DNA of 64,000 bases from a virus, in IMG/VR virus record IMGVR_UViG_3300042465_006702, positions 1 through 64,000 of that record; one strand, 5' to 3'. How positions within the stretch are numbered: the stretch's first letter is position 1; each line of letters begins with the position of its first letter. The notes under the pieces were generated by a model. It was not told the DNA's origin and did not search any database. It saw only the letters and a list, made by a program, of their open reading frames with translations. Positions 1,906-37,272 of this stretch are shown here, piece after piece. The translations under genes were made by a program, and so were the position numbers.

Positions 1906-2250
1906 TTACTGGATTTTAATTAAAGTTCTGCCTATTTCTTGGTTATTCTCATTAACTATGTATAAATATAAACTTTTTTGTGATAATGATTTAGTATATA
2001 TTTTTTTTGTGTTATTACCTACAATTCCGTTAATTTTTTCTTTAGTTACAACCTGTTGGGTGGTTGAATCAAATAATGTAATTATATGAACTCCACCACT
2101 TTTTAAAGTAAAATTAAAATCTTGTCCGTTTGTAAGAGTTACTTCATTTACTGAAAAAATATCAATAGGTGTTGGTTCTGGTTGTGGTATAACTTCTACC
2201 TTTTTACAAGCTACCAACGATAAAAATAATATAAATAATATCTTCTTCAT
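1906..2250 (-). CDS. Small lipoprotein, paralogue-like neighbour with T9SS-sorting-domain-like fold
   Basis: This 114-residue protein has a signal peptide with lipobox LVAC (C15 lipidated), then a Pro-rich linker (PQPEPTP) and one beta-rich domain. The domain pattern (FTLKSGGVHIITLFDS, VVTKEKI, NTKKIYTKSL, LYLYIVNENNQEIG) parallels the neighbouring lipoprotein and the T9SS type A sorting domain. Its start codon touches the stop of the large lectin/cohesin gene upstream, so the two are probably co-translated. Fold assignment is by eye. Confidence 0.65.
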   Translation of the reverse strand: MKKILFILFLSLVACKKVEVIPQPEPTPIDIFSVNEVTLTNGQDFNFTLKSGGVHIITLFDSTTQQVVTKEKINGIVGNNTKKIYTKSLSQKSLYLYIVNENNQEIGRTLIKIQ

Positions 2251-4538: not shown

Positions 4539-4539
4539 A

Positions 4540-6222: not shown

Positions 6223-6862
6223 AAAGTTTTGTTATTAGTTTATCTGCTGCTTTTTTAAGTGCGTTTGATAACGAAGTTTGATTGAATTTACCACCCTGGT
6301 CTACAATAAGTGTTGACATAGAAATTTCGGATGATGATTCTTCAACCATTACCTCTTTTTCTTTTTTACCATCTTTATAAAGGATACCCTTCATTCTGAT
6401 AACAACTTCTTCTTCCCCTTTATGAAATACTGAAATATTTGTCTTTGTAGTTAAGACATCTAAATATACAATTTCTACTTTAAGTTTTTGTGTAGCATCA
6501 GGAGATAAATCGTAATTTTTATCCTGTAGGTATTCTTCTAATACATTCTTAACACCAAATTCTAAATTACGGTTTCCTGCTAATTTACCAATCTTTACTT
6601 TGTTTTCTACACTCTCAACCCAAATATGGTCTGATTCTTCATACCAAATGTTTTCTGGGTTATTTTTAAATGTACCATCAATTCTCCAACTGATTTCATT
6701 TGCGATTTCAGTTGCAAGATTTTCGTTTCCACTAAATTGAAGGATTACAAAAAAGACTTGGAATAGGAATGCAAGTCCAATTAATGCTAAAAACGGAGCT
6801 AATATAAAATATATAGCTCTTTCCTTAAGGCCTAATGCCAGTGCTGTTACTTTTTGTTTCAT
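6209..6862 (-). CDS. Membrane-anchored protein with periplasmic domain
   Basis: This 217-residue protein has one strong hydrophobic segment at about 16-42 and a large soluble domain behind it. The C-terminal helix (ALKKAADKLITKL) loosely recalls periplasmic lipoprotein domains, but no family is firmly recognised. It heads the exported-protein run at 6.9-0.2 kb, preceded by a candidate promoter element and a GGGAGA ribosome-binding site. The 19-base leader before its ATG nearly equals that of the small basic gene at 12646. It overlaps the next gene by 14 bases. Confidence 0.6.
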   Translation of the reverse strand: MKQKVTALALGLKERAIYFILAPFLALIGLAFLFQVFFVILQFSGNENLATEIANEISWRIDGTFKNNPENIWYEESDHIWVESVENKVKIGKLAGNRNLEFGVKNVLEEYLQDKNYDLSPDATQKLKVEIVYLDVLTTKTNISVFHKGEEEVVIRMKGILYKDGKKEKEVMVEESSSEISMSTLIVDQGGKFNQTSLSNALKKAADKLITKLFEKK

Positions 6863-7113: not shown

Positions 7114-7689
7114 TTATTTACTTTTCAAAATTTTAATTATTTTATCGTATATCAGTTTATTTCCTTTTTGATTTAAGTGATTTACATTTCCTTTATATTT
7201 TATAAAAACATTTTCAAACTTATAAACACATTCATTATAAAAAGAATCAAAAAACGTTATATGTGTTGCGTTTGGAACTAAAAATTTAATTTCTTTAAAT
7301 ATTAATTCATTTATGAAACAAAAATATTCAGGATGAAAAATACTTTCATAAAAATCAACTGCCGTTTTCATTATTGGATTTCCAGTATGTTCGTTTGCAT
7401 CCGAATATATTATATCACAATTATAATGTAATAAATCATCTTTATGAATTGGGTGTTCAATTATTGGTATTCTATAAGCGGATGTGTGAGATACAATTAT
7501 GTGTTCAAATTTTGTAATATCTATATTTTCTAATTGCTTATAAATTTTATATTCACTAACACCCGCTTGTGCTACATTTGTAACATCATAATCGGATTCT
7601 AACATATTAACCCAACCACTTCCCTCATTATATTTTTTAGTCCAATCTGCTGCAAAACTATCTCCAGCTATTAGTAGTTTCTTTTTCAT
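7114..7689 (-). CDS. SGNH/GDSL-type hydrolase
   Basis: This 191-residue protein shows block I GDSF at residues 9-12 (Ser11 nucleophile) at the end of the first beta strand, and a terminal block NHLNQKGN with H171. The Asp usually found near this His is an Asn. Family members hydrolyse ester or acetyl groups on glycans and lipids. It is one of ten such genes in the window and overlaps the preceding SGNH gene by 32 bases, so the three in a row (7.1-9.2 kb) are one unit. With no signal peptide it acts in the cytoplasm or as a virion part. The Asn substitution leaves activity uncertain. Confidence 0.7.
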   Translation of the reverse strand: MKKKLLIAGDSFAADWTKKYNEGSGWVNMLESDYDVTNVAQAGVSEYKIYKQLENIDITKFEHIIVSHTSAYRIPIIEHPIHKDDLLHYNCDIIYSDANEHTGNPIMKTAVDFYESIFHPEYFCFINELIFKEIKFLVPNATHITFFDSFYNECVYKFENVFIKYKGNVNHLNQKGNKLIYDKIIKILKSK

Positions 7690-8434
7690 TTATATGATTT
7701 ATAACCATTTCTGCAATTAATTTATTACCTTTTAACCCAGCATGTATGTCTTGATATATAATTTTTTTCATAGGGTGTTCATCACAAACTCTTAATTTAT
7801 TTTCTACTACCCAATTATGGACTATATAATTATTTTCGTTTTCTTTAGTTGGAAACTTTACAATATATTTTTTAATCCACTCATATTTTTTATCAAAATC
7901 ATATTCACCATGCCAAAAAAGAATACATATTTTTTTATCAGTTAAGGTATTTATCTTCTTTTTTAATAAAGCCAAAACTTCATTTATAAATTCTTCGGGA
8001 TTATAATTTTCTAACCAATCCAATATTCTTTTTCTCAATTCTGGTCTATCATTTTTATCATTCGTTAAAAATGCTTCAATTTCATGTGGAGTTTTTGGAT
8101 ATTCATCATTATGAAAATATCTGTCAAAATAGTTGTATATTGCTGAAAATTCAAAAAATATATAATCAATATCCGATAAATCAGTATTTTCTAATCTATA
8201 TAAAGATTCTGCAGGCGAACCACCTGCTTCTGCGACATTTATTTCTTTTCTGTTTAAGTAATCGGATATCAATTTTGTCCATCTAACCGATTCAATAAAG
8301 TTGTCATCTTCACCCGTTTGATTATATGGCCATTTTAAAGTTTTTGCACCATCTTCCGTTAAATACTCATCTTTAAATGTGTGCAGTCCTACACCAAATG
8401 TATTAGATGAACCTAAAAACAAAACCGATTTCAT
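7658..8434 (-). CDS. SGNH-like hydrolase
   Basis: This 258-residue protein has block I GSSNTFG (8-14) in place of GDSF and a terminal QDIHAGLKGN block with D229 and H231, that is D-x-H spacing. The region before the terminal block carries ILFWHGEYDF. It overlaps the upstream SGNH gene by 4 bases and the downstream one by 32. The substrate is unknown; glycan de-esterification is the usual family role. Confidence 0.65.
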   Translation of the reverse strand: MKSVLFLGSSNTFGVGLHTFKDEYLTEDGAKTLKWPYNQTGEDDNFIESVRWTKLISDYLNRKEINVAEAGGSPAESLYRLENTDLSDIDYIFFEFSAIYNYFDRYFHNDEYPKTPHEIEAFLTNDKNDRPELRKRILDWLENYNPEEFINEVLALLKKKINTLTDKKICILFWHGEYDFDKKYEWIKKYIVKFPTKENENNYIVHNWVVENKLRVCDEHPMKKIIYQDIHAGLKGNKLIAEMVINHINEKETTNSWR

Positions 8435-9156
8435 AGTAACCCGTTATCATTAATATGTTTTTGTATCATACTAGCCAAATGCTTCATTCCTTTTTCATTT
8501 AAGTGCATCGCATTATCTCTTATATTTGATGCGGTATTTACATATGTCCAATGTTTTTGATAATCATTTCCAAAAGTTTCATAGTGTATTTGTGAAAAAT
8601 AATTAATGACACTAAAACACATTTTATCTACAATATCACCTTCGCCAAAATAATTTTTAGGGTCTATATGTTTTAACCAATTTTTTCTCATTTGAACCGT
8701 TTGTTTTAATTGGTCTCCCATTGACACGAAAAGATGTGGTATGTTTTTTGATTTTAATAATTTATGTAAAATTATTGTGTTCATTATTTGCGTATCAGTA
8801 CCTTGTGGTTCTAAAAAACATCCTCGGTTATTTATGATTTGCTGATAATAATGCGACGTAGTTAATATATCCGATTCAGATTCTGCTATAAGATTATCTG
8901 AATATTCTTTGTTTTCCTCAAAAACATCAGCTACTGTATCGTTTCTCCAAGGTTGCGACCAACCAATTAAAACAAAATCAAAGTCGTTATTTAGTATAGA
9001 AAATAATGCTTTTCTGAAAATGTTTGGGTTTGATGAACCTCCCATACAATTGTTTATATTTGTCCAATTTTTAAAGGTATCGGACAAACAAGTATCAACG
9101 GTAACATCTGGACTTTGTAAAAATGAACATCCACCTTGATATAACCTTTTACTCAT
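8431..9156 (-). CDS. SGNH-like hydrolase
   Basis: This 241-residue protein begins with GGCSF (8-12; Ser11) as block I. An N-rich block NCMGGSSNPN follows, with the Gly-Asn oxyanion features, then GWSQPWR. It ends with RDNAMHLNEKG, where H218 pairs with D214 or an alternative acid. The architecture is that of SGNH hydrolases. It is first of three tandem SGNH genes and starts 4 bases after the endolysin stop, so it may be co-expressed with lysis or tail functions. Confidence 0.65.
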   Translation of the reverse strand: MSKRLYQGGCSFLQSPDVTVDTCLSDTFKNWTNINNCMGGSSNPNIFRKALFSILNNDFDFVLIGWSQPWRNDTVADVFEENKEYSDNLIAESESDILTTSHYYQQIINNRGCFLEPQGTDTQIMNTIILHKLLKSKNIPHLFVSMGDQLKQTVQMRKNWLKHIDPKNYFGEGDIVDKMCFSVINYFSQIHYETFGNDYQKHWTYVNTASNIRDNAMHLNEKGMKHLASMIQKHINDNGLL

Positions 9157-10001: not shown

Positions 10002-10778
10002 TTATTTGTTATCAATTATTATTTTACTATAAATACTATTTGAAATTATTTTATGTCCATCTAACGTCATATGATTATCGTTTTTATTCAAATTTTTATC
10101 TCTAAAATAATTTTCTATAACTAAAATTGGATATTTTGCACACAGTTCATCGGTTGAATTGAATGATTCATTATTATATGTAAGTGGAATATGATATTTA
10201 AATAAATCGTGTCTTTGCAATGCATCCGATGAATCCTTTGGATAGCATATTACATATGGGGTCACCCCCTTTTTTTTTAATCTTTCAAAAAATTCTAAAC
10301 ATTTATCATAAAAATATTGATAAGATTGCATTACTATATCTTTATCTTTAATTTTAAGAATATCAAAATCCGCCATTAAAGTTGCTACATCTTGCAAAGC
10401 AATATACTCACCATCTGGAAATTTATACATGATAGGGTCCCTAACAAATTGAGTTATTTGTAATATGCAAATTTTATAATTTTTAACATTTTCTTCATTT
10501 TCGTAGAAATACTTAACTTTTAAAAGAGATTGTAAATTCGTTCCACCGTTTTTAGATTGTGTTATATATTCTACTCCAAGTTTTTTTGCTAATTGTGCTA
10601 CCCAACGATTTTCTTTTATAAAATTTAATTGAGCATTATCTAATGTTTTTTCTGCATCTGGAAAAGATGGTCTAATTTCTTTCCATACAACAGAATCTAA
10701 TCCAGAAAAAAATTGTAAAGATTCTCCCCATGTAAAAGAACACCCCACCGCAAATATATTATTTCCTTCTATCTGCAT
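10002..10778 (-). CDS. SGNH-like hydrolase
   Basis: A 258-residue protein if started at the ATG at 10778; the longer frame opens with TTG. Block I is GCSF at 12-15 (Ser14). The terminal block NDNHMTLDGH has D234-x-H236. It overlaps the upstream SGNH gene by 20 bases. It is predicted cytoplasmic and belongs with the other SGNH paralogues around the endolysin. Confidence 0.65.
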   Translation of the reverse strand: MQIEGNNIFAVGCSFTWGESLQFFSGLDSVVWKEIRPSFPDAEKTLDNAQLNFIKENRWVAQLAKKLGVEYITQSKNGGTNLQSLLKVKYFYENEENVKNYKICILQITQFVRDPIMYKFPDGEYIALQDVATLMADFDILKIKDKDIVMQSYQYFYDKCLEFFERLKKKGVTPYVICYPKDSSDALQRHDLFKYHIPLTYNNESFNSTDELCAKYPILVIENYFRDKNLNKNDNHMTLDGHKIISNSIYSKIIIDNK

Positions 10779-11496
10779 ATTGTTTTCCAAATTTTTTTAA
10801 AACTTCCATTGCCATAACTTGCTGACCTAATACACCAATATGCCCATCCGTACTCGTCGGGTCTTCATCACACATTCTTGCTTTATAATTACTATATGAA
10901 TCTTCTGCTCCTATATACTTTTCATCAAACTTAATAAAGTATTCTTTTTTAAGAATATCAATATCATTTATATTTGGAGAATTTGGTTTTTTTAAACACC
11001 AAAATGCAATATTTTTAGTAGGTAATAAATTGATTAACTTTTCAAATCTGTTAAGTTGTCTATGTTCGTATGCTGGTAATCCTGCAAAATATATTGCAAA
11101 ATCTACCAAAGTTTCATGCTTATGTTCGGTCATATCATCATCACCTATCAGGTTTACTTTGATATGTCTACTATCACCATATCTAACAATTGTATGTAAA
11201 AAACTAAATGAAGTTTTATGAGGAACATCAAATCTACTATAATATGCTGCTTGAATTACAACATAATCATTTTCTCCTATTTTATCTGCATTTTCTAAAA
11301 TCTTATCCAATATGTAATCATTGGATGCGCCTACATTTGCGTAATTATGTAATTCTAATTCCAATTCATCCGCTACTATTTCACACCAATATCGTTTATC
11401 AATATTATCCGATAATGTAACTTCATAAAATGGGTCAGAATCATTAAATCCATGTCCGTATGAAAAACTATCACCGAAAATCCATAACTTATTCAT
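10759..11496 (-). CDS. SGNH/GDSL-type hydrolase
   Basis: This 245-residue protein has a clear GDSF block I at 8-11 after a LWIFG strand. A NVGASNDYILDKIL stretch provides the Gly/Asn block, and TDGHIGVLGQ provides D217-x-H219. The similar starts MNKLWIFGDSF here and MSKLWIIGDSF at 19.8 kb mark these two as close paralogues. It lies 6 bases from the ParB-like gene. The substrate is unknown. Confidence 0.7.
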   Translation of the reverse strand: MNKLWIFGDSFSYGHGFNDSDPFYEVTLSDNIDKRYWCEIVADELELELHNYANVGASNDYILDKILENADKIGENDYVVIQAAYYSRFDVPHKTSFSFLHTIVRYGDSRHIKVNLIGDDDMTEHKHETLVDFAIYFAGLPAYEHRQLNRFEKLINLLPTKNIAFWCLKKPNSPNINDIDILKKEYFIKFDEKYIGAEDSYSNYKARMCDEDPTSTDGHIGVLGQQVMAMEVLKKFGKQYADRRK

Positions 11497-13962: not shown

Positions 13963-15019
13963 TTTTTATTAAATTTATTATGATATCTTTTTTTGTATAA
14001 TTATTTAGTAATTCTTTAAATAACTTTGTATTTTTTTCCAATTTATAACTATATTTTTCCATCAAATATAATTTGACATCAGAATTGGTTTTATACTTTA
14101 ATTTCAAATCTTTCAAATATGTAAAGGAATCAATACATGATTGCTCAATATCATTTTTAAAAAATTCAGAATTCAAAAACCAAAATCCCAATTCGTTTAA
14201 ATATCTAAATAACTTTGTAGGTCCATACCAAATAAAAAATACATTTTCTTCTGAAAATGCAATTGCTTTTAAGGTCTTTTCTGTTATGTATTGTCTGCCA
14301 TGCATTTTACTATCGGGTTCTTCATCATTACCAGTAGCATGCAAAGTTTCAAAAATCAAATTACAAACACTCGTTGTATAATCCAAATAAGATGTTATGT
14401 GGTTATTACCCCATTGTCCAAAATAATTGTATGATTGTAATAATTTTTTTAAATTATAATCATTTGATTGATATGAAACCAAATCAGTTTCTAAAATATC
14501 CTTTGCCCTTATATATAAACTATCCCTATGCTGTTTTTTGGTGTTCATACCATCTACAGGTCTATAATAAACTCCTAACAGATTTTCTTTTTTTTCAAAT
14601 TTATAATAATTTAAAAAATTAAATCCATAAAAATGATAAAAGAATATAAGATTAAAAATGGGGTCATAATAAAAATTAGGATGTTCAAAAGAAATAGATG
14701 CGGAAGATAAACATACATTTCCCGCATCTAAATATTCTTTTATTGATTGATTATGTTCGTGATAGTTTTCTACAATTTGAGTTTGTATCAATCTATCATA
14801 TCCATCAAAAGTTTTCCATTCTCTAAAAGTGTGAAATAATCTAATTTTTATATCACAGTCTTTTATATCAGAATAACTTTTTGAAAATATAAATTCATTT
14901 TCATCGTTTTGAAAAGAAAAATTTGAACCATCATCATTTTTTTTATATGGAAAGTTGTTAAGTGTATATAAAACTATAACACAATCTTCAAATGACCTGT
15001 ATTCAAATCCTATTTTCAT
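13946..15019 (-). CDS. Glycosyltransferase-like protein (GT10/phage 'TEKT' type)
   Basis: This 357-residue protein lacks a signal peptide. The C-terminal part has YITEKTLKAIAFSEENVFFI followed by GPTKLFRYLNELGFWFL. This matches the pattern of fucosyltransferase-like phage and bacterial proteins, in which a TEKT/K helix and a GxxxYLxxLGF segment bind the sugar nucleotide. The N-terminal half is divergent. It probably adds a sugar to a glycan or protein. It starts one base from the stop of the 68-residue gene. Confidence 0.5.
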   Translation of the reverse strand: MKIGFEYRSFEDCVIVLYTLNNFPYKKNDDGSNFSFQNDENEFIFSKSYSDIKDCDIKIRLFHTFREWKTFDGYDRLIQTQIVENYHEHNQSIKEYLDAGNVCLSSASISFEHPNFYYDPIFNLIFFYHFYGFNFLNYYKFEKKENLLGVYYRPVDGMNTKKQHRDSLYIRAKDILETDLVSYQSNDYNLKKLLQSYNYFGQWGNNHITSYLDYTTSVCNLIFETLHATGNDEEPDSKMHGRQYITEKTLKAIAFSEENVFFIWYGPTKLFRYLNELGFWFLNSEFFKNDIEQSCIDSFTYLKDLKLKYKTNSDVKLYLMEKYSYKLEKNTKLFKELLNNYTKKDIIINLIKNGKGN

Positions 15020-15225
15020 TAAAATACTTCAATGATTTTAGTTTCAGATACTTTTACAACTTCATACTCAAGCTTCACCGCATCCTTTGTGAATTTGTTT
15101 ACCAACTTTGCTTCAGCTTCTGTACAAGATAATGCATCTACTAAATACTGCTCTTTGTTTTTCTTAATTTTTCCTTTTGCATCTTCTACTTCTACTGCAA
15201 CTAATACTGAATAATACTTTGCCAT
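15019..15225 (-). CDS. Small protein resembling DUF4494
   Basis: This 68-residue protein has the layout xxYxVxVxVEVEDAKGKIKKNKEQYLVDALSCTEAEAK. The phrase YLVDALSxTEAEA is typical of the Bacteroidota family DUF4494, whose role is unknown. Such proteins are common in Bacteroidota genomes, and their presence here fits the proposed host. A candidate promoter lies about 30 bases upstream. Confidence 0.6.
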   Translation of the reverse strand: MAKYYSVLVAVEVEDAKGKIKKNKEQYLVDALSCTEAEAKLVNKFTKDAVKLEYEVVKVSETKIIEVF

Positions 15226-15282: not shown

Positions 15283-15318
15283 CCAAAACAAAAATGGGGA
15301 ATATTTCTACTCCCCAAT
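15283..15318 (-). terminator. Rho-independent terminator of the receptor gene
   Basis: The minus strand forms TGGGGA / TCCCCA arms around a 10-base loop, followed by TTTTTGTTTTGG. It lies 24 bases after the TonB-dependent receptor stop, so the receptor transcript probably ends here. Confidence 0.7.
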
Positions 15319-15341: not shown

Positions 15342-18300
15342 TTATTTGCCAAATGTATAACGAATACCTAGCTGAGCTGTCCACACATCAAATACTGATG
15401 AATTGAACATATAAGTGTCTTTAGCTAAATATGTTACACCACTAGCATCTCTTTGAGTTGCCAATCTATATGTTGGAACGTTATTAGCATCTCTGCTTAC
15501 AAAGTTCAACAATTGTGGCGCGCCTGCTCTTTGAGATACACCCCATTTGTTATTCAACATATTACCAAAGTTTAAGATATCTGCTCTGATTTGGAAAGCG
15601 TTTCTCTTTCCACCAATCTTAACAAATAGGTCTTGTGCAACTGAAAGGTCAAATCTATGTAAGAAAGGAAGTGCTAATGCGTTTCTTTCTGCGTATTGAC
15701 CTCTACGAGTTGATAGGTAAGGGTCTTGGTTAATGAACTTATCAAAAGCCTCTTGTTGTTGAGCTTCAGTATAAGTTACTGCCGTTGCACCACTACCAAC
15801 TGTCAATGTAGAAAAACGAATATCAGAACCTTTAAGTGGAACGAATACCAATTCATTGTTAGATACTCTATCTCCATTAAGGTCACCTGCTACAATGTAG
15901 GAGAATGGATTGTTTTGTGCTCCCACATATCCCAATGTGAATGTAGTAGCAGTACCATATTTCTTATCACCTTCAATACGGTATCCTAATAAACCAACAA
16001 TACGATTTCTAACTAAATTAGAAGAAATTGAAAGGCCTAAATCGTTATTATTTGTTGTAGATAATGCTGATTGCCAGCTACCACTCGCGATAGAACCTGC
16101 ATCCATAAAGTCCATAGCTCTTGCAGTTGTGTAAGCTACATAACCCCAAAGACCTTTTGATACCGGCTTCTCTAATTTGAATGTTGCTGAACGATTGTAA
16201 GCACCATTTCTATTAGTTAATACAGCTGCCATTGAAACGTTATCGTTTACTCTTACACCGGCATCAGTACCAGCGAAACGAGGTCTGTTATCAACACCAC
16301 CCAATGTTCCAACCGGAGCATCTAAATTAGCGTTGTAATAATGAACTGCGTTAATAGTTTGATTGTAAAGTAATTCAACACTTGCTACCAATCCCAACCA
16401 AGGTAATTTTTGGTCAACTGCTAAATTTGATTTCCAAACTTGTGGCATTTTGTAGTTAGCATCTGTTAATGCTAAATCAAATGTTGAAGGTAAAGTTGGA
16501 GTTGAAGGAATGAAGTATTGATTTGGGTTAGCAGTGAAACCATATTGAGCTGCCGCTGTACCACTCACATCAATAAATCCTGTCAACACACCATTGTTTC
16601 CGATTTGATTAGAAAGAAACACATATGGAGGTCTACCTGTAAAGATACCCGTTCCACCACGAATTTGTGTTTTCTTTTCACCCTTTACGTCATAGTTAAA
16701 TCCGAAACGAGGTTCGAATAACAATTGCGTTTTAGGCATTACACCCGTATTCCATTTTTCACCATTTGCAAAAGTCATTGCAGTAATCACTGGATTTTCT
16801 AATGCTGTATTTTCAAATGAAATGATATTTGTTCTCAAACCAAAACTTAAATTAAGATTTTTAGAAGCTTTATAATCATCTTGCAAATAGAAATCTAAAC
16901 GATTTGTTTTCAAAGTTTGCATTGGTTCAACTGCTCCTGGCAATGCCGAATAACGGAATTGGAAACGAGCTGGTGCAAATGTAGAAGGTCTACCACCATT
17001 TGCTAAAGATTGATTAGCCGCTGTGTAGAAATCGTTTAAACTATTGAAAATGTAAACACCATTAGATGCTGGGAAGAATAGATTATTGGATTGATACTTT
17101 TGAAAATTGAAACCACCAACCAATGTGTGTTTCTCCATATATTTTGTAACGTTATTTGTTACATTGAATGTCCAATAATTCAATTTGTTACCAGGAGTGA
17201 ATGGGTCAAAACCTACTGATGTATAAGTTGGTGCACCTTCTCTAATATCAATTGTTGGGAACATTGCGCTCATATAAGCTCTATCTTCAATTTGTTTATC
17301 GTAAGAAACGATTAAGTTATTATGAAGTGTGTTAGAGATTTTAGAGTTCAATTCCAATACTGCTGAACGAGTATTATCCATAATGATATAACCACTATTT
17401 TGGAAACTCATTGCGTTATATTGGGTAGTTCTGTTACCTGCACCTGCTGATTGTGAATTTGATATATTAATTTCCGCATTAGAATTATGATGAACATAAC
17501 GAGCGGTTAATTTATTCTTATCATTAATGTTCCAGTCAGTTCTAATCAAAAACTTTTTAGAAGCGTTTGTATTAGAATAACCTTCCCACGGACCTGTTAC
17601 ATAATTAAACTTCTCTTTCATAAAGTTTGAAAGAGCTTGCATATCAGCGTACTTCACACGAGATACTTGTGTACCTGTAAGTGGAGAACCTTCGGAAATC
17701 CAAGTTGTTCCAGGTTCAGTTCTTTCAATTTGTTCGTAGTTACCAAAGATGAACAATTTGTTCTTAATGATTGGCGCTCCTAAACGAAAACCTTGAACTT
17801 TTTCATCAAATTTAGATGCAGTTACGGTTACGCCTCTAGCATTATCACCAACATAACGAGAACTATTATCTCTTTGTGTTTGGTAAACGCTACCTTCAAT
17901 TTCATTAGAACCAGAACGAGTTACAGCGTTGATACCTGCACCGGTGAATCCACTTTGACGAATATCAAATGGTGCGATGTTAACCTGTAATTGTTCAATT
18001 GCATCCAATGAAATAGCACTTGCACCAGTTCTACCACCTGCTTGTGCAGATGAACCCAAACCGAAGTTGTTATTAAATTGAGAACCATCAATTGTGAAAT
18101 TGTTCAAACGAGAGTCTTGTGCTCCGAATGAGTTACCACTACCAAATGGATTATACTTTGTAATACCATCAATGGTTCTAGCACCTGTAATTGGAATAGT
18201 AGTTAATTCTCTTCTTCCAAACTGCTGTGCCGCACCTGTCTTTTCTTTTGAGAAAATGTTAGACTTTGTTCCTACAACAACGACTTCTTTAAGAGCCTTT

Positions 18301-18629
18301 GCTTCATCGGTCAATACAAAATCCACATTAGATGTAACACCTAATTGAGTATTAACATCAACTTCTTCTCCTTTTCTAAAACCTACAAATGAAGCATGGA
18401 TTACATATGGACCACCAACTCTTACTGCTGGTAATACATAAACACCACTTTTGTTCGTTGTAGTTTTGTACTCTGTTCCTGTTGGAGTGTGCGTCGCATG
18501 GATTGTTGCACCTGCTAACACTTCCTTCTTTTCGTTCTTAACAACACCAGAAATGGTTGAGGTTGTAATTTGTCCAAAACCTACCATTGTGAATGCTGCA
18601 AAAATCAATGACAAAATTGTCTTTTTCAT
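15342..18629 (-). CDS. Oar-type TonB-dependent outer-membrane receptor
   Basis: This 1095-residue protein has a signal peptide ending GFGQ (1-20). A CarboxypepD_reg-like beta-sandwich follows at ~22-110 (ISGVVKNEKKEVLAGATI), then a plug region (KEVVVVGTK, TIDGSQFNNNFG, GAGINAVTRSGSNEIEGSVY). A long beta-barrel rich in Asn/Tyr strands ends QLGIRYTFGK. GINAVTRSGSN is characteristic of Oar-like receptors of Bacteroidota and Myxococcus. The length is normal, with no frameshift. It is flanked by a terminator and the H1 terminator, so it is a single-gene unit. A receptor in a phage genome is unusual: it may replace, mask or supply a surface receptor, or carry in a substrate. It shares signal-peptide style with the proteins at 2.2-6.2 kb. 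Confidence 0.88.
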   Translation of the reverse strand: MKKTILSLIFAAFTMVGFGQITTSTISGVVKNEKKEVLAGATIHATHTPTGTEYKTTTNKSGVYVLPAVRVGGPYVIHASFVGFRKGEEVDVNTQLGVTSNVDFVLTDEAKALKEVVVVGTKSNIFSKEKTGAAQQFGRRELTTIPITGARTIDGITKYNPFGSGNSFGAQDSRLNNFTIDGSQFNNNFGLGSSAQAGGRTGASAISLDAIEQLQVNIAPFDIRQSGFTGAGINAVTRSGSNEIEGSVYQTQRDNSSRYVGDNARGVTVTASKFDEKVQGFRLGAPIIKNKLFIFGNYEQIERTEPGTTWISEGSPLTGTQVSRVKYADMQALSNFMKEKFNYVTGPWEGYSNTNASKKFLIRTDWNINDKNKLTARYVHHNSNAEINISNSQSAGAGNRTTQYNAMSFQNSGYIIMDNTRSAVLELNSKISNTLHNNLIVSYDKQIEDRAYMSAMFPTIDIREGAPTYTSVGFDPFTPGNKLNYWTFNVTNNVTKYMEKHTLVGGFNFQKYQSNNLFFPASNGVYIFNSLNDFYTAANQSLANGGRPSTFAPARFQFRYSALPGAVEPMQTLKTNRLDFYLQDDYKASKNLNLSFGLRTNIISFENTALENPVITAMTFANGEKWNTGVMPKTQLLFEPRFGFNYDVKGEKKTQIRGGTGIFTGRPPYVFLSNQIGNNGVLTGFIDVSGTAAAQYGFTANPNQYFIPSTPTLPSTFDLALTDANYKMPQVWKSNLAVDQKLPWLGLVASVELLYNQTINAVHYYNANLDAPVGTLGGVDNRPRFAGTDAGVRVNDNVSMAAVLTNRNGAYNRSATFKLEKPVSKGLWGYVAYTTARAMDFMDAGSIASGSWQSALSTTNNNDLGLSISSNLVRNRIVGLLGYRIEGDKKYGTATTFTLGYVGAQNNPFSYIVAGDLNGDRVSNNELVFVPLKGSDIRFSTLTVGSGATAVTYTEAQQQEAFDKFINQDPYLSTRRGQYAERNALALPFLHRFDLSVAQDLFVKIGGKRNAFQIRADILNFGNMLNNKWGVSQRAGAPQLLNFVSRDANNVPTYRLATQRDASGVTYLAKDTYMFNSSVFDVWTAQLGIRYTFGK

Positions 18630-18655: not shown

Positions 18656-18680
18656 AGGGTGCGATTATTCATCACACCCT
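18656..18680 (-). terminator. Rho-independent terminator of the H1-like gene
   Basis: On the minus strand, AGGGTGTG pairs with CGCACCCT (one G-U) around a 9-base loop and is followed by TTTTATTTTTT. It lies 10 bases beyond the H1-like stop codon and isolates the receptor gene from the upstream genes. Confidence 0.7.
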
Positions 18681-18689
18681 ATGGGTTTA

Positions 18690-18866
18690 CTATTGTTTTG
18701 TTTCTTCTACGGATGCCTGACGATAATCTGTTACCAATTTTTTAAGGTCACCAATCAAAGTTCTTGCATTCTTTTGTGATACTTTTGTTGTTTTGTTGTG
18801 CTCTTCTTCAAACTTATTCCACAATTGTTTCATCGTTTGGAATAACTCTTCTTTTTTACTAGCCAT
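18690..18866 (-). CDS. Histone H1-like (Hc1-type) DNA-binding protein
   Basis: Starting at the ATG at 18866 (a longer frame opens with TTG), the product is 58 residues. The pattern KKEELFQTMKQLWNKFEEEHNKTTKV, then AR-x3-GDLKKLVTDYRQASVEE, matches the compact Bacteroidota/Chlamydia H1-like domain, a helical hairpin rich in Lys and Glu. Such proteins condense DNA or bind RNA. Here it may package or silence DNA in infected cells. It has its own candidate promoter 25 bases upstream and a terminator just downstream. Confidence 0.75.
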   Translation of the reverse strand: MASKKEELFQTMKQLWNKFEEEHNKTTKVSQKNARTLIGDLKKLVTDYRQASVEETKQ

Positions 18867-18921: not shown

Positions 18922-19122
18922 TTATCTTCCTCGTTTTCTTTTGAGTTCTAATTCTTTAAGGTAATGTGCTTTCCAATGGTATTCAACCGAAACGGGCCCA
19001 TTTGGTTGTTTTTTCAAGTCATATTTCCAAATAGATTTAGATTCATCATCTTCAAATATGTATTCAAACTTTGTAGGTTTTTCTGTTTTACTATTATTTT
19101 CTTTAGAACTCTTTATACTCAT
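18922..19122 (-). CDS. Hypothetical charged protein, 66 residues
   Basis: A short hydrophilic protein with an Asn/Ser/Lys-rich start, a central FEYIFEDDESKSIWKYDL segment and a basic ELKRKRGR end. No family is recognised. Its ATG overlaps the stop of the preceding SGNH gene (ATGA), suggesting translational coupling. Confidence 0.5.
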   Translation of the reverse strand: MSIKSSKENNSKTEKPTKFEYIFEDDESKSIWKYDLKKQPNGPVSVEYHWKAHYLKELELKRKRGR

Positions 19123-19835
19123 GTGTTGAAAAATTTAGGAAATTTAACAATAAGATAATCTGCAAACGCCGTATGCATTTTTGGTGAAAAATGGGCATCA
19201 TCTCTTTTTCCTTCTAATCCATTAGTTTTTTGCCAAAGAGTGTGAAGGGTTTCCCAAATTCCTATTTTTTCTGTAATACAATCTTTATTTTCAATGAAAT
19301 CCCCCGATAACTCATTATCCCAGCTCCAAACATAAAATTCAAAAGGAACATACAATTTTATTGATTTTATTATTTCTAATAAATTTTTTTTATTTGCATT
19401 TGAACTATTTACTATTGACCATAATCGGCTATTTAAACCAGATTTATGGTCATCAAAAAAAGCATCTTCGAGTCCAAATAATGGTTCTTCCAATTCTTTC
19501 CCCTCCACATTTTGATAATTTCCATTTCCAATAAAATAATTTAAAATTTCCTTTTTACTTTCAAATGTTGTATATTCATTTGAAAACTCTACATCAATTT
19601 TTGGAGTTTTTAATGGTAATCTAATTCTTTCTAAAACAGGTATATTCAATATCACTAAATCATCTTTTGATATATCTTTCAAATTTTTTAAAAATATATC
19701 CATAATAGTCTGATAATCCCTACTGCCTTGGGATGAAATATAAAATTTACCTTTAAATTTTTTTGTAATTATTTCTGTCCAAAACCCACCATCATACCCC
19801 GTAAAACTATCTCCTATTATCCAAAGTTTACTCAT
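19119..19835 (-). CDS. SGNH/GDSL-type hydrolase
   Basis: The start is set at the ATG at 19835 (MSKLWIIGDSF) because the longer frame begins with TTG; the product is 238 residues. GDSF lies at 8-11, and the terminal block RDDAHFSPKMH gives the classical D212-x-x-H215, so this copy looks catalytically complete. It overlaps the GmhA gene by 8 bases, placing an esterase beside the heptose pathway. Confidence 0.72.
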   Translation of the reverse strand: MSKLWIIGDSFTGYDGGFWTEIITKKFKGKFYISSQGSRDYQTIMDIFLKNLKDISKDDLVILNIPVLERIRLPLKTPKIDVEFSNEYTTFESKKEILNYFIGNGNYQNVEGKELEEPLFGLEDAFFDDHKSGLNSRLWSIVNSSNANKKNLLEIIKSIKLYVPFEFYVWSWDNELSGDFIENKDCITEKIGIWETLHTLWQKTNGLEGKRDDAHFSPKMHTAFADYLIVKFPKFFNT

Positions 19836-20400
19836 TTTCAAATAATTTTGATTCTACTAATTCACAAATTATATGTCCTAATAAAATATGCGATTCTTGT
19901 ATTCTGGGCGTATCAGTCGATGGTACTTTTAAAATATAATCAGATATGTTGTTTAACTTTCCACCATCTATTCCCGTTAAGCTGATTGTTGTGATATTTT
20001 TTCCATTTGCAACCTCAAATGCTTTTACTATGTTTGTAGAATTACCTGAAGTGGATATTCCAATCAATACATCTCCGGCATTCATTACACCATCTACTAA
20101 ACGAGAATATACTGAATCATAATCGTAATCATTTGCTACTGCCGTTAAATAAGATGTATTACAATGTAGTGCTTCGGCGGGTAGTGCTTTTCTATCTTTG
20201 TAAAATCTACCAGATAATTCTGCTGCAAGGTGTTGAGCGTCTGCTGCACTTCCACCATTTCCACAAAACATAACTCTATTTCCTCTTTCAAATGTGTTAC
20301 AAATTACTTCAACTACTGATAAAATAGTTTTGTGAATTTCGGTATCTTTTAGTAACAATTCTTTAACTTCAATAGAGCTTTTTATTATTTTTTCTATCAT
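19828..20400 (-). CDS. gmhA: Phosphoheptose isomerase (GmhA-like SIS protein)
   Basis: This 190-residue protein contains the SIS domain signatures CGNGGSAADAQHLAAEL and GISTSGNSTNIVKA, plus TPRIQESHILLGHIICE. The QESH stretch is typical of GmhA, where Glu and His catalyse sedoheptulose 7-phosphate to D-glycero-D-manno-heptose 7-phosphate. Length and motifs agree with GmhA rather than generic SIS regulators. It overlaps IscA by 4 bases and follows IscU, an odd pairing in one operon. The heptose kinase HddA-like gene is 0.8 kb upstream. It probably feeds activated heptose for envelope or virion glycans. Confidence 0.87.
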   Translation of the reverse strand: MIEKIIKSSIEVKELLLKDTEIHKTILSVVEVICNTFERGNRVMFCGNGGSAADAQHLAAELSGRFYKDRKALPAEALHCNTSYLTAVANDYDYDSVYSRLVDGVMNAGDVLIGISTSGNSTNIVKAFEVANGKNITTISLTGIDGGKLNNISDYILKVPSTDTPRIQESHILLGHIICELVESKLFENE

Positions 20401-20720
20401 ACTGCAAAACTCTCACCACATCCGCAAGTTCGGCTAGCGTTGGGGTTTATAAACTGAAAACCCTTACCATTTAAACCATCTGAAAATTCTAATTCAGTAC
20501 CGAATAGGTATAGTAACGATTTGTTATCTACTAATATTTTTACTCCTTTATCTTCCGCAAGTGTATCGTTTGGTTGTTGTTCTGTATCAAATGAAAGTTC
20601 ATATGATAAACCACTACAACCACCACCCTTTACGGATACTCTTAAATACGGAGTTTTGAAACCACTTTCTTCAATTAGTGATTGAACTTTTTTAGCTGCC
20701 GATTCTGTTACAGTAATCAT
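20397..20720 (-). CDS. A-type iron-sulfur carrier (IscA/ErpA/SufA family)
   Basis: This 107-residue protein keeps all three cluster ligands: C35 in KGGGCSGLSY, and C99 and C101 in SRTCGCGESF. Length is normal for the family. It binds Fe-S clusters delivered by the scaffold and passes them to apo-proteins. It overlaps the IscU gene by 4 bases and GmhA by 4, so all three are translated from one message. A-type members cannot be told apart by sequence alone here. Confidence 0.92.
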   Translation of the reverse strand: MITVTESAAKKVQSLIEESGFKTPYLRVSVKGGGCSGLSYELSFDTEQQPNDTLAEDKGVKILVDNKSLLYLFGTELEFSDGLNGKGFQFINPNASRTCGCGESFAV

Positions 20721-21124
20721 ATGTGTTCTTCAAAAATTAATTCTTCCAATCCTTGCTTTTTTCTATAATCGTTAATTGCCGATTTGATTGCATCTTCAGC
20801 CAATACTGAACAATGTATCTTTACAGGTGGTAAATTCAATTCCTCTACCAAATCCATATTATCAATTGTTACTGCTTCATCTAAACTTTTTCCTTTCAAC
20901 CATTCGGTTGCCAAAGAACTAGCTGCGATTGCCGAACCACACCCAAATGTTTTGAATTTTGCATCGGTTATTAACCCATCATTTACTTCAATTTGCAATC
21001 TCATTACATCACCACATTCCGGAGCACCTACTAAACCTGTTCCTACATTTGGTTTAGATTTGTCCAAAGTTCCTACATTTTTAGGATTTGAATAGTGGTC
21101 TAAAACTTTTTCACTATATGCCAT
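20717..21124 (-). CDS. iscU: IscU iron-sulfur scaffold
   Basis: This 135-residue protein keeps the full scaffold site: C37, D39, C62 (FGCGSAIA), H104 and C105. The LPPVK motif (98-102) recognised by the HscA chaperone is also intact, so the protein could plug into a host ISC machine. No cysteine desulfurase or chaperone is seen in the window, so sulfur would come from the host. Candidate recipients encoded nearby are ferredoxin, the Cas4-like nuclease and host enzymes. A good copy of the recurrent promoter element lies about 20 bases upstream. Confidence 0.93.
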   Translation of the reverse strand: MAYSEKVLDHYSNPKNVGTLDKSKPNVGTGLVGAPECGDVMRLQIEVNDGLITDAKFKTFGCGSAIAASSLATEWLKGKSLDEAVTIDNMDLVEELNLPPVKIHCSVLAEDAIKSAINDYRKKQGLEELIFEEHI

Positions 21125-21140
21125 ATTATCTTATTTACTT

Positions 21141-21160
21141 TTATAAATATACGGAAAATT
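21141..21160 (-). promoter_or_regulatory. Candidate phage promoter element
   Basis: The minus strand reads AATTTTCCGTATATTTATAA before iscU, an exact CCGTATATT core. It overlaps the last codon of the GHMP kinase gene. Confidence 0.5.
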
Positions 21161-22193
21161 ATCCAATTTGCCAAGTTCTCATTCCCAATTTATTCCAAGT
21201 AAATGGTTGATTATATCCCATTTCTAATTTATCTAATGCTTTAATCACATCATATTTTGTATTATTCGGGCAGTAGAAAAACATAAATCCACCACCACCG
21301 GCACCACTTATCTTACCGCCGGTTGCACCTGCTTCTAATGCAGTTTTGTATAACAATTCTATTTCAGGTGTGCTAATTCCTTTTGCTAACATTTTCTTTT
21401 GCTGAAACCCATAATCTAATATCTCACCCAAGTCATCAATGTTTCCTTTGATTAAACAATCTTTTATTAATTTTGCTTGCTCTACCAAAGCGTGAAGTGA
21501 TAAAGTGGATGTTTTATTTTTATCTTTCATTTTTGTAACCTGTTCTTGTAATACATCGGAACTATTACGAGTAAAATTTGTAAAATAAAGAACTACATTA
21601 TTTTCCAATTCATCTTGCACACTATCTCTAACACGAAGTGGATTTACAACAACATCATCTCCTTTGAATTCCATATAATTCCAACCACCAAATGCAGCTG
21701 CATATTGGTCTTGCTTACCACCATTTTCTGCTAATTCAATTCTTTCAATTTGAATTGCCATTTCAGCTATATCATATTCACCCAATGGTAGATTAAATAA
21801 TTCTGTATATACACCAATTAAAGAAACAATTAGTGTTGATGATGTTCCCAATCCACTACCCGTTGGAACATCCTGCCAAGTTACGATATCATATCCAAAT
21901 GGTTCTAATTTAAAACGTTTAGATATGTGATTATGAGTTGCTTTAAACAACTTTAATCCATATGAACAATCTAACTCATTGGTGAATTCATGCTCCTCAT
22001 ATTCATCCTTATTTACCCATTTAAACGTAACTTTGGTATCATCTCTTAATACTAAAGAAGTGTGAGTGAATAAACGGATGGTAGTATTAATTACTGCGCC
22101 TGTGTGGTGTTTACAATAATCAGGCATATCAGTACCACCGCCACCGAAACTAATTCTGAATGGAACTTTGCTCCTGTAAATTCTTTTCTTCAT
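21159..22193 (-). CDS. hddA: GHMP kinase, heptose 7-phosphate kinase-like (HddA)
   Basis: This 344-residue protein has the GHMP motifs: PFRISFGGGGTDMPD at 11-25, DVPTGSGLGTSSTLIV at about 108-123 (ATP phosphate loop), and GKISGAGGGGFMFF near the C-terminus. PFRISFGGGGTD is typical of D-glycero-alpha-D-manno-heptose 7-phosphate kinases (HddA) and related sugar kinases. With GmhA in the same neighbourhood, a heptose 1,7-bisphosphate step is the best reading; the phosphatase and nucleotidyltransferase candidates lie elsewhere in the window. It overlaps the HNH-like gene by 44 bases. Confidence 0.85.
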   Translation of the reverse strand: MKKRIYRSKVPFRISFGGGGTDMPDYCKHHTGAVINTTIRLFTHTSLVLRDDTKVTFKWVNKDEYEEHEFTNELDCSYGLKLFKATHNHISKRFKLEPFGYDIVTWQDVPTGSGLGTSSTLIVSLIGVYTELFNLPLGEYDIAEMAIQIERIELAENGGKQDQYAAAFGGWNYMEFKGDDVVVNPLRVRDSVQDELENNVVLYFTNFTRNSSDVLQEQVTKMKDKNKTSTLSLHALVEQAKLIKDCLIKGNIDDLGEILDYGFQQKKMLAKGISTPEIELLYKTALEAGATGGKISGAGGGGFMFFYCPNNTKYDVIKALDKLEMGYNQPFTWNKLGMRTWQIG

Positions 22194-22781: not shown

Positions 22782-23678
22782 CTATAAATTAATATGATTT
22801 ATTATTTGTTCTGCTATTTTTTTTGAACCCAATATTGAATTATGCCCATCTAAACTCAAATTATTTGTATGATTTTTAAATGTTATTTTTTCCTCTCGTA
22901 TCCAATGAACCAAATCATAACAATAATAATTTTCTACTGGATGATATTTCTCATTATTTTTACTGATATAAAATTTAACGGAGTTACTATTTACTTTTGT
23001 TTGTATTTCTACACATTTTTCATAAGAAAGATACTTTTCATTACTTTTTGTAACGGCATGTAATCTATTATCCGTTTGAATAAAAATGCATTTTGAATTA
23101 TATAAATCAAATAAAGATAACAAAATAAACAAATTTTTTAAATCTTTTTTGGATTCGTTTTCTAAATCAAAATTATTTTCAAAAAACTTTCTAGTTTGTT
23201 TAAAACTTTGTTCAGTTAAAAAATCAAAGTTATCTTCTCCGGATGTAAAATTTCCATATCTATTTTGCTCACAAAAATAAAGTTCCCCCCTTCCAACAGG
23301 TGGAATTTCTATTAAGAACAAAGTTTCTTTTAATTCGTTTTTATCTGAATTTATAATGTAATTTATAGTTTTCCTGATTACCCTATCTAACGAGCTTCCG
23401 AATATTGATTCGTTTATTAAGTCTACTTTATAATTTTCTGCAATAACATTTGCATAATTATATTTTTTTCTTACCCAATCAAAATCATTAAATGGTTTGA
23501 ATGCATTTGGATTTGTATATTCGTTGTTTTCATTTTGTATTGAATGTTTTTTACATTCATCTTTGAATTTTGAAATATCTATTTTATTCGTTTCATCAAA
23601 AAACTCAAAATACCAGGGATTATTATGATGATGTCCCCACATAAAACTGCAACCATTTGAATAAATTCTTTTAAACAT
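22782..23678 (-). CDS. SGNH-like hydrolase
   Basis: This 298-residue protein has block I NGCSFMWG (8-15). The middle contains EIPPVGRGELYF, and the end has LSLDGHNSILG with D277-x-H279. It is longest of the ten SGNH genes and touches the APS-kinase-like gene (shared base 23678). With no signal peptide it acts inside the cell or as a virion part. Confidence 0.65.
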   Translation of the reverse strand: MFKRIYSNGCSFMWGHHHNNPWYFEFFDETNKIDISKFKDECKKHSIQNENNEYTNPNAFKPFNDFDWVRKKYNYANVIAENYKVDLINESIFGSSLDRVIRKTINYIINSDKNELKETLFLIEIPPVGRGELYFCEQNRYGNFTSGEDNFDFLTEQSFKQTRKFFENNFDLENESKKDLKNLFILLSLFDLYNSKCIFIQTDNRLHAVTKSNEKYLSYEKCVEIQTKVNSNSVKFYISKNNEKYHPVENYYCYDLVHWIREEKITFKNHTNNLSLDGHNSILGSKKIAEQIINHINL

Positions 23679-25665: not shown

Positions 25666-26310
25666 TTATAATTTTTGTATATACCTATATAAATATTCAA
25701 AAAATTCTTTATGCCCCAATTTTCCGAAATGTCTATCATTATTTGTTTGCCACCATTTTGAATTTGAGTTACAATAATCAATCCAACAAGGTTTTGTATA
25801 TGGTTTTATGTAATTATTTGTATTATTTTTTACCAAATTATCAAATAAGGATAAACCACATTTGTCCATATTCCAAAATAAAAATTTAATACCTTTACTT
25901 TTTAAAGAGTCTATTATAAATTTATATTGTAATAATGCGGTATGTGTGTATTGTAGCATTGCATTTTCATCTACAAATTTATTTTTATAAAACAAAACTT
26001 CATAATCATCATATCCATCTGTATTTTGATTTCTCAAATCAATACCTCTATCTTTATAAAAATCATAAATTCTATCATAAAAGGTAAATCCAATAATTAC
26101 TAAATCAGAATAATCAATTTTTTTTATCTCTAAATTTTTGTAAATTGTATTTAAGATGCCGTAATTAGATATACCCGGTGATGCATAATTTTTTAATTCA
26201 TATCCTAATTCTTTTGAAAGCAAATTGGGCCAACTTTCTTCAATTTGTATTTCACCAATTGTAGAAAAGTTTGTAGAAAATGAATCACCAAAAATATATA
26301 AATTTTTCAT
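25666..26310 (-). CDS. SGNH/GDSL-type hydrolase
   Basis: This 214-residue protein starts MKNLYIFGDSFS with GDSF at 8-11. A YASPGISNYGILN stretch provides the Gly/Asn block, and NDRHFGKLGH provides D192-x-H194. The order of blocks and the strand spacing are SGNH-like. It sits 8 bases from the 2OG-oxygenase gene at the edge of the carbohydrate block. Confidence 0.72.
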   Translation of the reverse strand: MKNLYIFGDSFSTNFSTIGEIQIEESWPNLLSKELGYELKNYASPGISNYGILNTIYKNLEIKKIDYSDLVIIGFTFYDRIYDFYKDRGIDLRNQNTDGYDDYEVLFYKNKFVDENAMLQYTHTALLQYKFIIDSLKSKGIKFLFWNMDKCGLSLFDNLVKNNTNNYIKPYTKPCWIDYCNSNSKWWQTNNDRHFGKLGHKEFFEYLYRYIQKL

Positions 26311-33317: not shown

Positions 33318-33754
33318 ATTAATTCTTTATATTTTAATATTTCATCCGTACAAATTCCGTAACAAACTGATAAATCGCCACCATACCCCCATTCAGGCAT
33401 ACAACATATTGAATCCTTTAATAATTCTTTTCCTGGATATACCCAAATCATACCATTTGATATTAGTGTATAATCATCATTTGCATGCCAAAAATATTTA
33501 ACATTATTCCATTTATTAAAACGTTCCAATGCCGCTGCGTTTTTGCAGTGTAACCACAACTTTGGATTAAAAAAATAATCACTATTTACTTTGTATTGTG
33601 GTTCATCGTGTCCCAAATACCATCCATCTGTTGTAAACCACACATCAACTTCAACATCATATCCTTCTTTAATAGCTTCTTCTATATAATCAGGATGATT
33701 TTCTCTACTTGGAATTCTACCATCAATATTTCCTCTATGTGATATTAATACCAT
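33314..33754 (-). CDS. Short PI-PLC/GDPD-fold protein
   Basis: This 146-residue protein begins MVLISHRGN (H6-R7-G8) and has VEVDVWFTTDGWYLGHDEP with E35-x-D37 and H49. These match the metal-binding HRG / ExD / H landmarks of glycerophosphodiester phosphodiesterases. It is much shorter than the usual ~240 residues, so the later barrel strands may be missing or replaced. It touches the phosphatase-nucleotidyltransferase gene. It could hydrolyse or transfer a phosphodiester-linked sugar substituent. Confidence 0.6.
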   Translation of the reverse strand: MVLISHRGNIDGRIPSRENHPDYIEEAIKEGYDVEVDVWFTTDGWYLGHDEPQYKVNSDYFFNPKLWLHCKNAAALERFNKWNNVKYFWHANDDYTLISNGMIWVYPGKELLKDSICCMPEWGYGGDLSVCYGICTDEILKYKELI

Positions 33755-37269: not shown

Positions 37270-37272
37270 AAT

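Follow-up and report, generated by a model that had tools for sequence, protein, structure and literature searches.

An Oar-type TonB-dependent receptor gene carried and exchanged by large phages

Why would a phage carry an intact gene for an outer-membrane receptor, and what would the product do in an infected cell? Phage auxiliary genes act mostly within the cell. The window, a 64,000-nucleotide stretch of an IMG/VR virus record of 64,935 bases, contains at positions 15342 to 18629 a single unbroken open reading frame of 1,095 codons; this gene and all other window features located below lie on the minus strand. An earlier note, made from the letters alone and giving no strand, had called the product a full-length Oar-type TonB-dependent receptor with a signal peptide, CarboxypepD_reg domain, plug, and barrel in that order. 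We found by Pfam a CarboxypepD_reg domain at residues 25 to 107 (18309 to 18557; PF13620, E = 1.4e-16) and an Oar-like barrel at residues 236 to 1026 (PF25183, OMP_b-brl_4, E = 2.1e-50), a pair that we take to be the mark of Oar-type receptors. The signal peptide (residues 1 to 20; 18570 to 18629) was assigned by inspection of the sequence. The plug (residues 126 to 244; 17898 to 18254) is by site entropies the most conserved part of the protein; the Plug model PF07715 found no match in the window receptor itself and matched a homologue, L040, at residues 161 to 232 (E = 4.4e-5). The proposed order thus holds by Pfam for the CarboxypepD_reg domain and the barrel, by inspection for the signal peptide, and by way of the homologue for the plug. 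Between the CarboxypepD_reg domain and the plug, in a linker modeled as disordered (residues 112 to 123), lies a TonB-box-like motif (residues 113 to 119; 18273 to 18293). A pattern defined for the present analysis, L-x-[DE]-V-[VI]-[VIL], matched 47 of 57 phage copies (the other 10 had no match), 11 of 11 tested copies of a second viral clade, and 33 of 33 cellular orthologues.

The AlphaFold2 model of the receptor (pLDDT, 88.3; pTM, 0.83) has a predicted barrel of 22 strands with 11 extracellular loops (residues 245 to 1095; 15345 to 17897), with strands taken from DSSP and strand and loop assignments made by hand. We compared the model with solved structures, and the matches listed by Foldseek and VIA were TonB-dependent transporters (FusA by Foldseek, E = 7.8e-31; VIA Z scores up to 35). 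The three best VIA alignments, as given by their end points, begin at residues 92 to 127 and end at residues 1093 to 1094. Since these ranges begin at or before residue 127 and L040 has the Pfam Plug match, we place a plug inside the barrel. Searches with the receptor sequence of PHROGs, of NCBIfam (up to an E value of 10; its library presumably includes a SusC/RagA receptor model), and of the chains solved in the PDB gave no match. We concluded that the phage receptor keeps the plug, the TonB-box-like motif, and the barrel.

The earlier note had also placed the gene in a phage-like replication genome, and the virus record and the window's genes bear this out: a T4-type DNA polymerase (49267 to 51822; PHROG 262, E = 2.7e-181), which we used as the yardstick of phage kinship, a clamp loader, UvsX, and a helicase are all encoded on the same strand as the receptor. 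No structural gene was identified among the window's genes searched; the portal and capsid evidence comes from related contigs. A T4-type portal is encoded in 18 of 25 large receptor-bearing records, and gp23 scored above the cutoff in 4 of 18 related contigs. bS21 is encoded in 12 of the 25 records and in seven of them lies no farther than about 1.2 kb from the portal, on the opposite strand. The carriers seem to be large tailed phages apparently infecting aquatic Bacteroidota. Dozens of viral contigs carry the receptor gene, and 39 of the 43 loci in our first set encode receptors with 72 to 96% identity. Among 50,697 INPHARED records, four matched, all of them unannotated faecal records, one over the full length (31% identity) and three over 7 to 14% of the query. 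A plasmid search returned 30 records, with a best listed match of 34%.

One explanation for such a gene is host contamination or an assembly chimera, and 13 of the 43 first loci do terminate within the gene, an effect that shared sequence can produce. Against this, the gene recurs in many separate metagenomes with phage genes on both flanks, occupied and empty versions of one site exist, and we found no cellular sequence with more than 64% identity. The 39 conserved viral loci, together with portal and capsid genes on the same contigs, dispose of the host integration or chimera that the earlier note had named as its refutation, and we consider an artifact exceedingly improbable.

The earlier note had proposed a comparison with cellular Oar proteins in a gene tree. 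We built a tree from 73 distinct viral sequences of full length and 108 cellular ones (181 proteins in all), in which the viral copies fall into three virus-only clades of 58, 12, and 3 rows. The sister of the window's clade consists of chromosomal genes of one Flavobacteriaceae genus (61 to 64% identity; four of four genomes positive), and orthologues in the two closest genera have 57 to 64% identity to the phage receptor. In the sister-genus locus L045, the receptor gene comes after PGI (Pfam, E = 1e-206), and a homologous upstream gene was found at 10 of 13 readable loci of the sister genus and Flavobacterium. At the level of sequence, these relations indicate that the phage receptor derived from a Flavobacteriaceae-like chromosomal gene and that phages have maintained it. 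The median dN/dS was 0.14 for phage pairs (268/276) and 0.125 for cellular pairs (101/253), which indicates that the phage receptor evolves under purifying selection.

We also found that the gene has a history of its own within phages. Three receptors share 81%, 78%, and 71% identity with that of the window, yet the corresponding polymerases are 29 to 31% identical over only about 90 residues; likewise, the window and a further contig, G005, share 85.4% identity in the receptor, 36.8% in the polymerase, and 36.1% in the helicase. In ten related contigs, the window's insertion site is empty. The site is flanked on the left by a 58-codon gene directly upstream of the receptor (18690 to 18866) and on the right by a DUF4494 gene (15019 to 15225; PF14902, E = 2.5e-11), both recognized from the empty sites. 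The receptor gene appears in many different contexts across the viral loci. We concluded from these comparisons that it is an accessory gene, which some related phages have at a given site and others lack, and that it has been exchanged among phage lineages. Being accessory and missing from close relatives is what one would expect of a passenger, selfish or neutral, in other words a host gene that phages happen to carry and swap with no benefit to themselves. A few copies are also incomplete or frame broken (L025, L033, and L037), although L025 starts at a contig end and the others may reflect sequencing error. A passenger does not readily account for the low dN/dS, for 73 distinct full-length viral copies with their 3.3 kb unbroken, or for three separate viral clades, and we regard this explanation as highly doubtful.

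What, then, might selection be preserving? When we treated sites as independent and disregarded phylogeny, loop identity was 76.3% among phages versus 69.2% among cells, and strand identity was 76.9% versus 77.9%. Because the loops are more conserved in phages than in cells and the strands are similar, we favor a conserved ligand. According to this model, which we hold tentatively and at somewhat less than an even chance, the phages maintain a family of Oar-type transporters for host-TonB-powered import of one conserved ligand during infection. The receptor would be exported in the infected cell and inserted by the host BAM machinery. It would be energized by host TonB-ExbBD, which we propose because no phage TonB was found (PF03544, TonB_C, had no match in 26 of 26 records). 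It would then import a single conserved external ligand that is limiting for phage production, at a time when host receptors decay or cease being made, and would act as an auxiliary metabolic gene at the outer membrane. Loops that stayed constant in phages while those of hosts diversified would offer a direct handle on the ligand.

The same loops bear on superinfection exclusion or receptor swap, in which a host receptor is masked or supplanted by that of the phage, so that rivals can no longer adsorb. Such a mechanism has a precedent in the porin of phage PA-2. TonB-dependent receptors are known phage receptors, solved complexes in which FhuA is bound by the T5 receptor-binding protein or by the superinfection-exclusion lipoprotein Llp are among our VIA matches, and sugar-pathway enzymes encoded in the window might alter the host surface. 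Docking in one study implicates TonB-dependent receptors for three Bacteroides phages (PMC10569736). However, frequency-dependent evasion predicts diverse loops, and those of the phage receptors are more conserved than the hosts'; in addition, the plug, which a mask should be able to dispense with, is the most conserved domain. This pattern disfavors the decoy for rival phages suggested in the earlier note, and we judge exclusion to be unlikely. The host surface may nonetheless be altered after infection, as the earlier note also suggested.

A third role would be export. In Myxococcus xanthus, Oar secretes a protein, PopC, and the ExbB/ExbD/TonB system is also required (PMC6434023). A kept TonB box fits secretion as well and so cannot separate import from export, and for this reason we moved a very small share of our confidence from import to export. 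Under this explanation, the phage receptor would help a phage-encoded secreted protein across the outer membrane. A candidate cargo is a non-specific endonuclease (Endonuclease_NS) with an apparent signal peptide encoded downstream of the receptor in L016 (13333 to 13986; PF01223, E = 5.3e-40); the downstream genes in L008, L023, and L031, which begin in a similar way, may be of the same kind. Against a dedicated cargo, what lies downstream varies from one context to another (GroEL in L010, CpeT in L034, and elsewhere a P-loop-like gene, so classed by eye, or DUF4494), and we consider export improbable. None of the receptor's neighbor genes indicates a substrate.

Import of a conserved ligand raises the question of which one. 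The earlier note had linked the receptor to uptake of vitamin B12 for the window's class II ribonucleotide reductase (56892 to 58748; PF02867 and PF21995), and the B12-type insertion domain PF21995 is indeed recognizable in that enzyme (E = 3.3e-6). We found a reductase match in 9 of 25 receptor-bearing records and none in the other 16, which include records of 287, 270, and 245 kb and may be fragments. BtuB shares the overall fold of the receptor model (VIA Z score of about 34; 11% identity), and siderophore and ferredoxin receptors are equally close (Z score of about 35), so the model shows no preference for BtuB. We therefore regard the B12 link as unsupported. A SusC/SusD system likewise gained no support: PF07980, the one SusD family searched (PMC6784887 names PF12741, PF12771, and PF14322 as further ones), had no match in 26 of 26 records, some possibly fragments.

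Expression of the gene offers a separate view. Just after the stop codon lies a terminator-like hairpin (15295 to 15316), in agreement with the gene's own terminator described in the earlier note. Our scan found three such sites in 6.6 kb versus 2.4 expected, so that their placement is informative and their count is not. Another, followed by a T-tract, ends 26 nt before the ATG (18656 to 18680). Of 36 viral copies, 26 had this leader hairpin by a stricter detector, which also found it in 12 of 483 other phage genes and in none of 33 cellular orthologues. A relaxed detector, loosened after inspection of copies that the stricter one had missed, gave 60 positives among the 72 viral copies that could be scored (73 in total) versus 14 of 483 other phage genes. 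A better-matched background came from phage genes preceded by at least 40 nt of free DNA, 64 of 389 of which have a hairpin (71 of 1,086 for all phage genes); in cells the hairpin occurred in 1 of 33 close orthologues and in 24 of 76 homologues at greater distance. Given these backgrounds, we dropped the hairpin as a phage-specific feature and regard it as only enriched. A short open reading frame ends at the hairpin at 38 of 63 loci versus 9.9 expected from shuffles, the loci being related; in window-type phages, this frame is a normal gene of the phage, found ahead of the empty site as well. A host-type promoter lies within 700 nt upstream at 26 of 55 loci versus 23 of 550 random stretches, and 25 of the 26 are at −147 to −293, nearly all in two context types. 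Rfam gave nothing at gathering scores in the window, where a known riboswitch upstream was sought, and no known riboswitch at eight loci, where the sole match was a tmRNA in L246. Taking the upstream promoter, the short frame, and the terminator abutting its stop as a leader, one could picture a lineage of outer-membrane transporters dedicated to phages, with a frozen extracellular surface, that hops across distant phage families as a single-gene cassette and whose product appears only when the infected cell is in a particular translational state. We think this rather doubtful, and an insulating terminator with a late promoter is as likely as an attenuator.

Phages that carry and exchange an intact outer-membrane receptor gene may change transport across the surface of the host upon infection. 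A large, selected, and mobile family of outer-membrane receptors would imply that infection renews or alters the transport (or surface) machinery of the cell. What the gene does can be tested, since the same phage site is available in both occupied and empty form.

Among known systems, megaphage Mar_Mega_1 and LR745206 likewise encode a TonB-dependent receptor, annotated "TonB-dependent receptor (SusC)" and proposed as an auxiliary metabolic gene (PMC9723777). Beyond that paper, our literature search, with subscription journals mostly outside its coverage, found no report of phage-encoded TonB-dependent receptors. Those proteins are named for the SusD-pairing carbohydrate type and come from two genomes, whereas we describe a family of Oar type with no PF07980 match, so the carbohydrate role proposed for the megaphage SusC is unlikely to transfer. 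By structural alignment, the only TonB-dependent receptor among 50 listed BFVD matches was a SusC of an uncultured marine phage (11% identity), which we guess to be the Mar_Mega_1 protein. The bS21-encoding lake phages, the predicted hosts of which are Bacteroidetes, have bS21 near the portal on the other strand, much as in seven of our records, and the main text of that paper does not contain "TonB" (PMC9723584). The closest likeness is to the Oar-type transporters of Bacteroidota, which at 57 to 64% identity in the two nearest genera have the same domain order at full length; the phage receptor differs from them in its virus-only clade, its phage context, its more conserved loops, and its upstream region.

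The earlier note described an Oar-type TonB-dependent receptor at window positions 15342 to 18629, and we found a single open frame of 1095 codons there, on the minus strand. In Pfam the protein matched CarboxypepD_reg and the Oar-like barrel PF25183; it had no match in NCBIfam, PHROG, or PDB sequences. We built an AlphaFold2 model on a 63-sequence alignment (mean pLDDT, 88.3; pTM, 0.83), in which pLDDT fell below 50 (runs of ≥3 residues) only at residues 1 to 19 and 112 to 123, and the latter stretch holds a TonB-box-like motif. The top PDB structural matches of the model were TonB-dependent transporters. FusA was matched with an E value of 7.8e-31, and a structural comparison with VIA gave Z up to 35, its three best matches aligning over 519 to 689 residues. 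We assigned 22 strands and 11 outer loops to the barrel of the model.

The source record in IMG/VR has 64,935 bases, and 81 of 82 ORFs in the window (≥60 aa, overlaps removed) share one strand. The window also has matches to a T4-type polymerase, clamp loader, UvsX, helicase, and exonuclease. Scanning viral contigs for the receptor gave 43 loci, 39 at 72 to 96% identity and four at 37 to 42%; a profile scan gave 158 relatives, and among the best 80 of these, contigs reach 321 kb. A T4 portal was present on 18 of 25 large receptor-bearing records. gp23 was above cut-off in 4 of 18 records, including G001, a 118-kb relative whose gene order near the receptor resembles the window's. A bS21 gene was found in 12 of the 25, about 1.2 kb or less from the portal in seven; PMC9723584 describes a comparable bS21/portal arrangement in Bacteroidetes-infecting lake phages.

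The closest cellular match in 84,980 species genomes was 63% identical (by a pattern scan, which can miss matches). In the genus of F. hercynium, 39 of 398 genomes matched at E ≤ 1e-150, the best at 61% and three at only 37 to 38%, and in another Flavobacteriaceae genus all 4 genomes carry an orthologue (61 to 64%). In a 76-row tree, one clade (SH-aLRT, 100) holds 25 of 26 viral receptors, with this 4-genome genus as its sister; the remaining viral row, L040, groups beside a Ferruginibacter gene. In a larger FastTree tree of 73 distinct viral and 108 cellular rows, the viral rows fall into three clades without cellular members, with 58, 12, and 3 rows. At the cellular locus L045, phosphoglucose isomerase (E = 1e-206) precedes the chromosomal orthologue, and the upstream gene has a homologue in 10 of 13 readable loci. 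Because of these neighbors, the native home of the gene is likely the chromosome, with phages as recipients. Together, the donor clade and the lake phages of PMC9723584 suggest Bacteroidetes hosts.

Within the main clade, receptor grouping disagrees with phage gene order. The window receptor groups with those of loci L002 and L034 (SH-aLRT, 94), and that of L007 with L004, L006, and L015 (SH-aLRT, 100), despite differing gene neighborhoods. Between the window and the viral record G005, receptors are 85.4% identical, with 36.8% for the polymerase, 43.6% for the clamp loader, 36.1% for the helicase, and 22.8% for UvsX; for G009, the values are 87.9% (receptor) and 60.4% (polymerase). Across the 25 records, which may be fragments, the polymerase is 60 to 87% identical to the window's in 11, 38% in one, and 24 to 31% over part of its length in four, and nine have no match to it. 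Three of those four have receptors at 81% (G423), 78% (G438), and 71% (G429); the fourth, G441, has one of the third clade, at 47%. Unusual conservation extends beyond the receptor, as the class II ribonucleotide reductase is conserved at 70 to 89% identity. Three neighboring genes at 2250 to 6862 (minus strand), two with apparent signal peptides, include a C-type lectin match and a cohesin match below cut-off; they are 53 to 75% identical where polymerases are only 37 to 60% identical, and they form a further surface-related set common to several phages. Exchange is therefore not peculiar to the receptor.

The receptor of window-type phages has a 58-codon gene on one side and DUF4494 on the other. 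We found ten loci (L299, L330, L368, L371, L373 to L375, L383, L386, and L387) in which these genes adjoin and the receptor is absent, the distance being 80 to 114 nt in nine; for L373, the empty site was deduced from where its hits lie and where its sequence stretch ends. By eye, DNA past the small gene in L299 and L330 looks like receptor-downstream DNA of L010 and L014, and a hairpin resembling the receptor leader precedes DUF4494 in L375 and L387. These resemblances look like traces of receptor gain or loss via flanking terminator regions. In L380, GroEL occupies the site. GroEL also lies directly 3′ of the receptor in L010 (13395 to 15014), L014, L021, L027, L248, and L250 (called by PF00118 for L010 and by sequence start elsewhere) and in the receptorless receptor region of L378 to L380; GroES is at window 61082 to 61390.

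Of 72 viral copies that could be scored, 60 have a terminator-like hairpin with a T-tract ending 24 to 58 nt 5′ of the ATG, against a background of 64/389 for phage genes with free upstream DNA; the stems are unrelated in sequence between contexts. Among cellular relatives, such a hairpin precedes 1 of 33 close orthologues and 24 of 76 distant homologues. In several lineages, a host-type promoter about 150 to 290 nt upstream is followed by a short ORF with its stop codon right against the hairpin. Such a leader may serve for translation-coupled attenuation or, about as probably, for insulation ahead of a late promoter. The distant homologues with hairpins (L081, L086, L090, L094, L105, L110, and others) are in many cases from marine Flavobacteriaceae, and shared regulation of Oar genes is possible. 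In L246, a phage tmRNA gene (4378 to 4777; RF00023 in Rfam, 83.9 bits) lies 1.2 kb upstream of the receptor.

Median dN/dS was 0.14 for phage receptors (24 genes; 268/276 pairs usable) and 0.125 for cellular orthologues (23 genes; 101/253 pairs usable). Conservation was highest in the plug. For barrel strands, mean pairwise identity was 76.9% in phages and 77.9% in cells, and for outer loops it was 76.3% versus 69.2%, in an unequal sample of 57 phage and 33 cellular copies, the latter mostly from the Flavobacterium genus. For loops 1, 3, 5, and 7, picked post hoc, it was 84.4% versus 70.4%. A loops-versus-strands rank test, taking sites as independent, gave p = 6.6e-6. Exclusion of rival phages is a possible but less likely role, disfavored by this conservation of the outer loops.

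These data show a transporter-like protein encoded by an intact, selected, mobile phage gene. We propose that the infected cell would make and export the receptor, that host machinery would insert and energize it, and that it would import one conserved ligand. Host energization is proposed because TonB_C had no match in any of 26 records. The earlier idea that the ligand is B12 for the reductase fails on distribution, the reductase being matched in 9 of 25 records (possibly fragments). Secretion, rather than import, is possible by analogy with M. xanthus, in which PopC secretion requires Oar plus ExbB/ExbD/TonB (PMC6434023); a secreted endonuclease lies 3′ of the receptor, though in some lineages only.

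Elsewhere in the window, nine minus-strand ORFs (at 7114 to 9156, 10002 to 11496, 19119 to 19841, 22782 to 23678, 25666 to 26310, and 40694 to 41353) open, by eye, with GDS-, GCS-, or GSS-type motifs, as in SGNH hydrolases. None of the nine matched Pfam above cut-off (two chance-level matches); they form a paralogue cluster unusual for 64 kb. Minus-strand matches to SIS_2, GHMP kinase, a HAD-nucleotidyltransferase fusion, and an epimerase at 19828 to 22193 and 33754 to 38265 look like a phage-carried activated-heptose or related sugar pathway. The Mom-family product at 54191 to 54994 (minus strand; PF25680, E = 6.8e-42) probably serves DNA-modification counter-defense. Iron-sulfur assembly genes lie at 20397 to 21124 (minus strand; Fe-S_biosyn and NifU_N), and the NifU_N gene has relatives in at least 586 viral stretches.

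A phage-specific, inter-lineage Oar-type receptor family this large has no counterpart in the literature searched, where one paper, on a megaphage SusC (PMC9723777), concerns a phage-encoded TonB-dependent receptor. A carbohydrate role was suggested for that SusC; here SusD (PF07980) had no match in 26 of 26 records (possibly fragments), and the role therefore probably does not transfer to these receptors.
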